The translations under genes were made by a program, and so were the position numbers. A DNA stretch of 64,000 nucleotides, taken from positions 1 through 64,000 of the forward strand of contig NZ_LYXZ01000018.1 in the NCBI RefSeq assembly GCF_001676615.1. The letters are read 5' to 3'. Numbering within the stretch: position 1 is the first letter of the stretch; every line of letters starts with the position of its first letter. This document shows positions 26,497 through 33,097 of this stretch, in pieces. The stretch is from Labrys sp. WJW (GTDB taxonomy: Bacteria; Pseudomonadota; Alphaproteobacteria; Rhizobiales; Labraceae). The notes below the pieces were generated by a model, which saw only the letters and a list, made by a program, of their open reading frames with translations, did not search any database and was not told the DNA's origin.

Positions 26497-26597
26497 AGCG
26501 CCTTGCGATTGGGCGGATCGCCCGGAAATCGTAAGGACGCGTCGAAACAAAAGTTAGAGCAAAGCAGGCATTCTTGCCGAAACATACCCGACTCTAG
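26497..26597. repeat. Dispersed ~100-bp repeat, degenerate copy
   Basis: AAAGCGCCTTGCGATTGGGC at the left and AAAGTTAGAGCAAAGCAGGC further right align with the better copies at 31367, 40585 and 55302. Lies upstream of the porin-like gene. Confidence 0.55.
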
Positions 26598-31300: not shown

Positions 31301-31366
31301 CCGGGAGAAGCGACGCCTGACAGGAGGTTTCGCCACCGAGGATTGTTCGCCCGTCGGCATTTTGCT

Positions 31367-31470
31367 AGAGCGTTTTGCGATTAGGCGGAATCATCTCGAA
31401 TCGCAAAGACGCGTCGAACCAAAGAGCGAGAGCAAAGCAGCGTTTCCGTCTAAACGCGCTTTGCTCTAGA
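31367..31470. repeat. Dispersed ~100-bp repeat
   Basis: AGAGCGTTTTGCGATTAGGC ... AATCGCAAAGACGCGTCGAA ... ACGCGCTTTGCTCTAGA. Full-length copy in plus orientation, ending 34 bp before the phenicol-exporter leader ORF. Confidence 0.8.
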
Positions 31471-31503
31471 GGCCTTGTTTCATCCGTTTCACGGGAGCCG
31501 GAC

Positions 31504-31533
31504 ATGAGAGGCCTCAAATCGTCGGACCGCTAG
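31504..31533 (+). CDS. Nine-codon leader peptide upstream of the phenicol exporter
   Basis: ATG AGA GGC CTC AAA TCG... encodes MRGLKSSDR and stops with TAG. It is preceded by CGGGAGCCGGAC, a good ribosome site. As I recall it, the cmlA attenuator of class 1 integrons also has a nine-residue leader (xSTSKNADK); here Lys5, Asp8 and a basic residue 9 fall in the same places. The stop codon abuts a strong hairpin, and leader codons TCG GAC (31522-31527) can pair with GTCCGA at 31569-31574. This is the layout of translational attenuation by drug-stalled ribosomes. The call rests on position, length and similarity. Confidence 0.65.
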   Translation: MRGLKSSDR

Positions 31534-31563
31534 GCCGCAACGACATGTCGATGTTGTTGCGGC
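31534..31563 (+). promoter_or_regulatory. Attenuator-type hairpin after the leader ORF
   Basis: GCCGCAACGACAT - GTCG - ATGTTGTTGCGGC: 13 pairs (one G-U) with a 4-base loop, starting right after the leader stop codon. No T-run follows, so it is not a terminator. An outer stem TCGGAC/GTCCGA (31522-31527 with 31569-31574) would extend it into the leader, so that a stalled ribosome would disrupt it. Confidence 0.65.
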
Positions 31564-31642
31564 GTTCTGTCCGATCCCATCCGGTTTCGCACTGAAGAGG
31601 CAGACCGCCGCCGAATGTTTTCATTTGAGCGGATGTTTCGTC

Positions 31643-32863
31643 ATGCCTGCCAAAAACCCCGTCTGGGGCCATGCTTTGCCGTCGGCCCTGTTGCTGATGG
31701 CCCCCTTCGATATCCTCGCCTCCCTGGCCATGGATATCTATCTGCCCATCGTGCCCATCATGCCGGCGACGCTGGAAACCAGCGTCGCGGTGATCCAACT
31801 GACCCTCAGCCTCTATATGGTGATGCTGGGGGCCGGGCAGATCGTCTTCGGGCCGCTGTCCGACCGCACAGGCCGCCGGCCGGTGCTGATCGGCGGTGCC
31901 GCCCTGTTCCTGCTTGCGTCTCTGGGACTTGCGGCGAGTTCCAACGCCGCTGTCTTCGTGGCCCTGCGCTTCCTGCAGGCGGCCGGCGCCTCCGCCTGCC
32001 TGGTGGCGACCTTCGCCACGGTCCGGGACGTCTACGCCGAACGTCCCGAAGGCGCCGTCATCTACAGCCTGTTCAGCGCCATGCTCGCTTTCGTGCCGGC
32101 CTTGGGGCCGATTGCCGGGGCACTCATCGCCGATCGATTCGGCTGGCGGGCAATCTTCCTCACGCTGGGACTGTTGATGGCCGCCGCGTTCGCCCAAGCG
32201 GCATGGCGCTGGCCCGAGACCCGGCGAGAAGCGGTCGAGGTCGCTCGGCGTCCGGCCACTACGGTTCTCTCCAGCTATGCCTTCTGGACCTATACGGCGG
32301 CCTTCGGCACGGCGATGGGGAGCTTCTTCGTCTTCTTCTCCACCGCGCCGCGGGTGCTGATCGACAGGGCCGGCTATTCGCCCCTGGCCTTCAGCCTTGC
32401 CTTCGCCACGGCGGCCGTCGCCATGATGGTCGCAACCCGTTTCGTGCCAGGCCGTGTCGAGAGCTGGGGACGCCTGGGCTGCCTCAGGCGGGCCATGGCG
32501 ACGATCCTGGCGGGCGCCGGCCTGCTTGCCTTGGGCGAGATGGTGGAAGCGGCATCCTGGTGGAGCTTTCTCGCGCCGATGTGGGTGATCGCCGTCGGCA
32601 TCGTCCTCGCCGGCGGTGTCGCTGCCAATGGTGCGCTCCAGGGCTTCGATGACATCGCCGGTGCGGCTGTTGCGCTCTATTTCTGCGTGCAGAGCCTGAT
32701 GGTCAGTGTGGGCGGCACCTTGGTCGTCCTGGTTCTGCCGGGGGATACCGCCTGGCCGCTGGTGGCCTATGCCGCCGGCATGGCGAGCCTGGTTCTTCTG
32801 CTTGCCGGAGCAAGGCGGGAAGGGCTGTCGAGGATCGACGTCGAGAATTCCTCTGCGGGCTGA
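31643..32863 (+). CDS. CmlA/FloR-type phenicol exporter (MFS, Bcr/CflA group)
   Basis: A 406-residue drug:proton antiporter with about 12 membrane segments. The N-terminal region PSALLLMAPFDILASLAMDI then YLPIVPIMP, QLTLSLYMVMLGAGQIVFGP, LSDRTGRRPVLIGG, TFATVRDVYAERPEG and the later FFVFFSTAPRVLI and FDDIAGAAVALYFCVQSL match the FloR/CmlA chloramphenicol-florfenicol exporters much more closely than general Bcr/CflA proteins. Start ATG 31643 has a poor ribosome site; an in-frame TTG at 31625 exists. The 110 bp before it hold a cmlA-like leader and hairpin. Nothing around suggests an integron or transposon, so it looks like a resident gene. Substrate specificity is inferred. Confidence 0.88.
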   Translation: MPAKNPVWGHALPSALLLMAPFDILASLAMDIYLPIVPIMPATLETSVAVIQLTLSLYMVMLGAGQIVFGPLSDRTGRRPVLIGGAALFLLASLGLAASSNAAVFVALRFLQAAGASACLVATFATVRDVYAERPEGAVIYSLFSAMLAFVPALGPIAGALIADRFGWRAIFLTLGLLMAAAFAQAAWRWPETRREAVEVARRPATTVLSSYAFWTYTAAFGTAMGSFFVFFSTAPRVLIDRAGYSPLAFSLAFATAAVAMMVATRFVPGRVESWGRLGCLRRAMATILAGAGLLALGEMVEAASWWSFLAPMWVIAVGIVLAGGVAANGALQGFDDIAGAAVALYFCVQSLMVSVGGTLVVLVLPGDTAWPLVAYAAGMASLVLLLAGARREGLSRIDVENSSAG

Positions 32864-32920: not shown

Positions 32921-33087
32921 AAGGGTGATCCGGCGGACGCGTCGGGTGCCTGATCGAAAGGTAGCCCTACCACGGATGTACTGGGGGGTGGGCCGATTGA
33001 AATGAAAGGGCCGGCGTTTCGCCTTCGGGTTTGATCCTGGCCTTTGTCGCAAGGCAACCCCGTCAGCAATGGCGGGGTTTCGTTTTT
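32921..33087 (+). ncRNA. Candidate structured small RNA with own promoter and terminator
   Basis: A promoter-like pair CTTGTT (32884-32889) - 18 bp - TATATA (32908-32913) lies 58 bp after the exporter stop and predicts transcription from about 32921. The segment ends in an intrinsic terminator (33056-33087: AACCCCGTC / GGCGGGGTT, loop AGCAAT, then TTTCGTTTTT). Inside, CCCTACC pairs with GGTGGG (one bulge), GGCG-TTT-CGCC and GCCTT-TGTCGC-AAGGC form hairpins. There is no good ORF. Length (about 167 nt) is in the range of 6S RNA and other trans-acting RNAs, but I do not recognise the family. Alternatively this is only the 3' UTR and terminator of the exporter gene. Confidence 0.5.
33056..33087 (+). 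terminator. Intrinsic terminator
   Basis: Nine-pair stem AACCCCGTC/GGCGGGGTT with loop AGCAAT followed by TTTCGTTTTT. It ends the candidate RNA and, by read-through, the exporter transcript. Confidence 0.8.
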
Positions 33088-33097
33088 CTGGCGTCTT

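Follow-up and report, generated by a model that had tools for sequence, protein, structure and literature searches.

The 64-kb stretch of DNA analysed here, hereafter the window, comes from a Labrys genome of 7.6 Mb and carries on its forward strand an intact gene (31643-32863) for a phenicol exporter of the CmlA/FloR type, 406 aa in length. The protein scores 604 bits on NCBIfam NF033134, the CmlA/FloR equivalog model with a curated cut-off of 450, and shares 61% identity with FloR and 50% with CmlA1. Residues D23 and R109 matter in FloR, and both are identical in the window exporter, as is R283, with phenicol export itself being predicted. A terminator-like hairpin (AACCCCGTCAGCAATGGCGGGGTT) with a T-rich tail can be recognised in the sequence after the gene, on the same strand (33057-33089). 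The neighbouring genes belong to CobS, DUF1289, SBP_bac_3 (solute-binding), NAD_binding_2 (dehydrogenase), ECH (enoyl-CoA hydratase), EamA (two transporters), DAO (oxidoreductase) and a MoaA-like family. The close relatives L. okinawensis RP1T and Labrys sp. KNU-23 show identities of 96% and 87%, and gene order around the locus matches that of both over approximately 8-10 kb on each side. No mobile-element family has been detected among the ten neighbouring genes, nor was an integron-cassette location encountered, and the lack of an integron or transposon claimed in an earlier, sequence-only reading of this DNA is thus borne out in the immediate vicinity. A fourth Labrys genome (G003) carries an exporter of 63% identity in a different neighbourhood and a fifth (G004) carries none; across the order, the exporter occurs in 14 of 397 genomes, with a family search over the phylum finding it in 13 of 398 and a class-wide one yielding the window genome only. 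Considering the collinearity in two relatives on the one hand and this scattered occurrence on the other, the exporter is resident in this Labrys lineage and patchy in the genus and order.

Ahead of the exporter, a leader ORF of nine codons (MRGLKSSDR, 31504-31533, + strand) begins with an ATG at 31504 and ends with a TAG stop at 31531-31533. Its ribosome-binding site, GGGAG (31493-31497, + strand), is recognised from the sequence, with GGGAG or AGGAG at the same place in two close relatives. A hairpin of 13 pairs, one of them G-T, lies directly against the stop (31534-31563, + strand; GCCGCAACGACAT / GTCG / ATGTTGTTGCGGC), and the leader codons 7-8 (TCGGAC, 31522-31527) are complementary to GTCCGA at 31569-31574. 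The leader with its ribosome site, the hairpin against the stop and the complementarity of codons 7-8 had been described in the sequence-only reading and are seen on the sequence as stated there; its placing of a CmlA/FloR-type exporter 110 bp downstream was right as to the type, with the distance between the leader stop and the exporter ATG (31643) being read here as 109 nt. The leader peptide is identical in two other Labrys genomes, with one synonymous DNA difference in each, and the leader differences among the three closest Labrys loci are all synonymous.

Leaders of this kind have been found well beyond the genus, similar in sequence and position across Proteobacteria, and they are conserved between loci whose exporters share only 50-68% identity. 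With the strand correctly read, the leader is present at all but four of the 99 homologue loci first examined, some of which are redundant; the loci with leaders include five on the minus strand (L094, L096, L098, L099, and L008). The conservation of the nine-codon ORF in relatives, on which the sequence-only reading had made its case depend, was looked for and found. Among the 99 loci, those without a leader (L080, L081, L082, and L088) are floR copies in Flavobacteriaceae with unrelated DNA upstream, hence attenuator control seems to have been shed when floR moved out of Proteobacteria. Examples of leaders comprise MGAEPSSDK in Microvirga, MGTSKSADK and MGALPQSDR in Mesorhizobium, MGSTPSADR in Rhizobium and MGAGKSADK in Azospirillum, as well as MGNSKSADK before plasmid floR and MSTSKNADK before integron cmlA1 (locus L103), and there are many intermediates between the cmlA1 leader and that of the window. 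In the fourth Labrys genome, the leader MRNDPSADR is followed by a hairpin of altered sequence (GCCGCAGCAAC...GTTGCTGCGGC). Distant members recovered in the phylum search have longer leaders with a similar end, such as MNNGNGPQTVR and MSTLKMHITDR.

The end of the leader follows a strict residue rule. When leader peptides of every length are pooled (41 distinct), only Ala (27), Ser (11) and Thr (3) stand third from the end, and in 35 the next residue is Asp. In a set of 44 distinct leader DNAs of nine codons or more, two stop-less leaders included, residue 7 is only Ala (31) or Ser (13), with residue 8 being Asp in 41 and residue 9 Lys or Arg in an equal number. Both tallies are uncorrected for shared descent, but many of the exporters differ by 30-50%. 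The sequence-only reading had instead stressed a match of Lys5, Asp8 and basic residue 9 to the cmlA leader; this match is present, but it is less telling than residue 7, with roughly one leader in four having Pro at position 5. Chloramphenicol arrest has been reported to be strongest with Ala as the penultimate residue of the nascent chain and weaker with Ser or Thr (PMC8987054). As the third-last residue of the leaders obeys this same nascent-chain rule, we infer a stall at codon 8, which would occupy the P site and put residue 7 in the penultimate position. In the window, the end Ser7-Asp8-Arg9 fits a pattern of Ala, Ser or Thr at position -1, Asp in the P site, a basic codon (here Arg9, predicted to occupy the A site) and the stop, with Ser7 being a weaker arrest context than Ala. 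The rule constitutes natural comparative support for context-specific chloramphenicol arrest. Two kinds of unusual leader may be mentioned in this regard. At three loci of family f239 (L120, L121, and L122), an eleven-codon leader, MNNGNGPQTVR or MSNGNGPQTVR, ends in Thr-Val-Arg and is accompanied by a diverged pair of segments 2 and 3 (described below), offering a useful case for whether Thr at position -1 without Asp still senses phenicols. In L025 (2864-2935) and L035, TAT or TAC has replaced the TAA stop of the leader, whose reading frame consequently runs on through the hairpin; a stall at Asp8 could persist there, and termination would differ.

The RNA downstream of the leader can be divided into four segments. 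Segment 1 (31534-31546) is the left arm of the hairpin at the leader stop, and its first 7 nt would be covered by a ribosome that has stopped at codon 8, the edge of which is modelled at 31540. Segment 2 (31551-31571) contains the right arm of this hairpin (31551-31563) and a portion, 31559-31571, which can pair with segment 3 (GGCAGACCGCCGC, 31599-31611) if segment 1 is covered; otherwise, the end of segment 3 pairs with segment 4 in a second hairpin, 3:4 (CCGCCGAATG TTTT CATTTGAGCGG, 31608-31632). This hairpin, which is present in the predicted fold of the window, hides the likely exporter ribosome-binding site, GAGCGG (31627-31632), found 10 nt before the ATG and represented in most homologues by GAGCGG, GAGTGG, GAGAGG or GAGGG. 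All four segments are on the + strand, and neither the second hairpin nor the alternative 2:3 pairing had been noticed in the sequence-only reading. A fold of -72.8 kcal/mol (z = -4.4) is predicted for the 171 nt between 31490 and 31660, and none of 200 shuffles did as well. In an alignment of 43 non-redundant sequences of the element (A2), 99.6% of cells are paired for hairpin 1:2, where two pairs are compensated and several changes involve G-U, and 88% for hairpin 3:4, where four pairs show two-sided change. The observed values of five measures of joint structure were reached by 0-22 of 500 shuffles, with relatedness left uncorrected.

The alternative pairing is conserved as well, its core being paired in 97% of the cells of the same 43 sequences. 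When a stalled ribosome was imitated in the folding model by blocking the nucleotides up to codon 8 + 15, the mean probability of 3:4 across these sequences fell from 0.73 to 0.16, that of 2:3 reached 0.72, and the ribosome site became freer in 34 of the 43. For the window alone, the modelled block brought 2:3 to 0.91 and lowered 3:4 from 0.64 to 0.08, with the exporter ribosome site itself becoming only modestly freer (0.17 to 0.26). The 2:3 switch was not predicted by the model in L029, L040, L043 and L097. Covariation has been less clear. When segments were swapped among the 43 close sequences, native partners paired no better than swapped ones; with 12 representatives, near-duplicates included, 118 of 20000 permutations were as good as the native arrangement, and with a reduced set of nine this rose to 1622 of 20000, which is not significant. 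The best single cases are the divergent L120 and L121 (GCGGTGATC with GATCACCGC) and L123, in which complementarity is kept with both segments drifted. The 2:3 pairing is thus conserved with weak covariation, and the detail of the switch is well motivated rather than proven. Leader and exporter are approximately 130-145 nt apart in most homologues. At L100 and L119 (G107), about 80 nt of extra sequence occurs between segments 2 and 3, with the leader and both hairpins kept.

Taken together, the locus is very probably a chloramphenicol-sensing translational attenuator of the cmlA/floR type which controls a chromosomal phenicol exporter. The comparison shows that the leader, its residue rule and the hairpins are conserved and that the element is linked to the exporter; the stall, the switch and induction are inferred. 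The mechanism follows with high confidence from the homology and the residue rule: the element is homologous to the cmlA attenuator and should work in the same manner. The label of cmlA-like leader and attenuator given in the sequence-only reading is well supported, as the cmlA1 leader is followed by the same GCCGCAGCAAC...GTTGTTGCGGC hairpin and the leaders grade into one another. Without the drug, ribosomes would finish and leave the leader, allowing hairpin 1:2 (31534-31563) to form, and hairpin 3:4 would hide the exporter ribosome site. A ribosome carrying a phenicol would be expected to halt with Asp8 in the P site, since Ser7 stands at position -1 of the nascent chain. It would then cover segment 1 to about 31540, leaving segment 2 to pair with segment 3, and this pairing would release segment 4 together with the exporter ribosome site. 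The absence of a T-run after hairpin 1 led us to reject an intrinsic terminator there, and with it transcription attenuation.

A simpler form of control is conceivable, in which everything depends on the hairpin at the leader stop, which might for instance act on the stability of the mRNA or on termination of the leader, with the exporter ribosome site left unswitched. Such direct attenuation would agree with the weak 2:3 covariation and with reports on floR, where a single inverted repeat has been described that does not overlap the floR ribosome site and where the floR mRNA itself rises with the drug (PMC5890775, PMC8256890). It would leave unexplained, however, why 88% of cells preserve the pairing of a hairpin over the ribosome site, several of its pairs having changed on both sides, why segment 3 remains complementary to a drifted segment 2 in L120, L121 and L123, and why the spacing between leader and exporter is held in most homologues. 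This explanation is accordingly considered unlikely, though it is the strongest of those weighed against translational attenuation with a switched ribosome site.

The region upstream of the leader raises the question of whether the attenuator still works in the window strain. A block conserved in three Labrys genomes contains a possible promoter, TTGTTC ... TGCTAG (31343-31368, + strand), a tentative assignment in view of a sigma-70 consensus scan that returned no match; its second hexamer region reads TGCTAAAC in L. okinawensis and TGATAAAG in Labrys KNU-23. Between this candidate and the leader, in the window strain only, lies an interspersed double-hairpin repeat of about 100 bp (31367-31469, unstranded), inserted at the possible -10 element some 35 nt ahead of the leader, a site that is empty in L. 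okinawensis and Labrys KNU-23. The repeat has at least 40 copies in the window genome, several of them at contig ends, and related pieces occur in the window near 26497, 29910, 33171, 33545, 40585, 41504 and 55301. An insertion at this position could alter expression, and by parting the possible promoter from the leader it might have turned the descendant of a working attenuator into a constitutive relic. Against this, the leader, the hairpins and the exporter are nearly unchanged with respect to relatives, the leader changes are only synonymous and the exporter is intact, which makes such decay rather improbable. The abundance of hairpin-forming interspersed repeats in this genome could also prompt the view that a short ORF happens to lie beside an ordinary hairpin or repeat. 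Of the 29 nine-codon ATG ORFs on both strands of the window, none but MRGLKSSDR ends in [AST]-D-[KR], only it and one other have a stem of at least 11 pairs against the stop, and the two properties never coincided in 40 Markov replicates; the leader hairpin is also distinct from the interspersed repeat. Coincidence has in any case been refuted by the conservation of the leader, in sequence and position, across Proteobacteria, and its probability is negligible.

The specificity of the element has been addressed with a covariance model (R1). Some of the sequences searched had served in building it, so the search is a test of specificity more than of sensitivity. In the window genome, R1 finds the element at this locus only, a second weak match being the same palindromic site on the other strand. 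Applied across the order (394 genomes), it gave 14 strong matches, which fall in 13 genomes that all carry the exporter. A weak match in G087 was rejected, as it is a terminator-like hairpin after a triosephosphate-isomerase-like gene. A search of Rfam with the element returned no family.

Among known systems, the closest is the attenuator of cmlA in class 1 integron cassettes (Tn1696). A nine-residue leader with two alternative stem-loops was described in the cmlA cassette in 1991, and induction by the drug has been reported (Stokes and Hall 1991, as reviewed in PMC8876359). Like the window locus, it has a nine-codon leader ending in [A/S]-D-basic-stop and, abutting this stop, the same GCCGC...GCGGC hairpin, with a CmlA/FloR exporter approximately 100 nt downstream; its two alternative stem-loops have predicted counterparts in the window; the Labrys locus differs in being chromosomal, syntenic and free of a cassette, in its leader MRGLKSSDR with Ser7, and in an exporter that is only 50% identical. 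For floR (ICEApl2 and pAR060302, PMC5890775; floR-T1/T2, PMC8256890), expression rises with phenicols, and a nine-residue leader with one hairpin has been described whose role was called unclear. The question of control was left open in these papers because the hairpin lies away from the ribosome site. The window shares with floR the nine-codon leader (MGNSKSADK in the floR loci read here), the 11-bp hairpin and a homologous exporter (61%), whereas floR is mobile and the window copy is not, and a second hairpin is predicted to cover the ribosome site both in the window and family-wide. Inducible cat attenuators follow a shared logic of drug-stalled leader translation; in cat-86 the leader is MVKTDK, whose C-terminal Thr-Asp-Lys has the same pattern, but the product is an acetyltransferase and there is one hairpin. 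The fexA attenuator of Staphylococcus likewise places a phenicol exporter under a phenicol-responsive leader (PMC5418344), with FexA belonging to a different transporter family (31 bits only). In Myxococcus xanthus cells adapted to chloramphenicol, no gene is raised more strongly than that of the CmlA/FloR exporter MXAN_2566; the exporter is needed for growth in the drug, and its loss leads to chloramphenicol sensitivity (PMC6617876). The homologue in M. xanthus AM003 (L090), a locus not equated here with MXAN_2566, has the leader MGSTVSADE. A literature search, with subscription papers mostly outside its scope, found no paper describing the family-wide element or the second floR hairpin, and the apparent family-wide extent of the attenuator and the predicted second hairpin over the floR ribosome site seem to be new. 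With a second conserved hairpin and a pairing that could link it to the first, the question of floR control becomes testable by paired mutations.

On comparative grounds, the Labrys locus is a genuine member of the cmlA/floR attenuator family, both conserved and chromosomal, and its history can be approached through the exporters. The tree used covers 52 exporters and is unrooted, as the inclusion of a distant outgroup had distorted the root. In it, mobile FloR from a plasmid, Providencia, Myroides and Flavobacterium nests in a clade of strong support (100/100, then 99/96); most of the remaining members of this clade are alphaproteobacterial, and several lie on large contigs or complete chromosomes. 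CmlA stands alone on a long branch and the Labrys copy on a separate side branch, hence neither can be called the ancestor of the other. The suggestion that the locus represents an ancestral, chromosomal form of a mobile element accordingly stands in part: an older chromosomal form is supported for floR by the largely chromosomal alphaproteobacterial forms that surround it in the tree, but the tree does not place cmlA on its long branch and shows the Labrys copy as a side branch of a patchy gene. As the leader occurs on all these branches, it would date back to the FloR-CmlA split or earlier, unless exchanged by recombination. The same element precedes almost every relative of the exporter, cmlA and floR included, so these mobile genes seem to carry along a control that was already common among the chromosomes of Alphaproteobacteria. 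Phenicol resistance that is probably inducible is widespread on environmental chromosomes, which bears on the source of mobile floR. The odds are about even that the attenuator and exporter are a long-established chromosomal module in soil Alphaproteobacteria which natural inhibitors of the ribosomal peptidyl transferase centre keep under selection, with floR and perhaps cmlA having been mobilised with a ready-made sensor rather than gaining control later. Two natural chimeras have also been observed, in Comamonas (L043) and in another genome of the phylum (L114), where the cmlA promoter region and the leader MSTSKNADK precede a floR-type exporter, which suggests that the control element recombines as a module.
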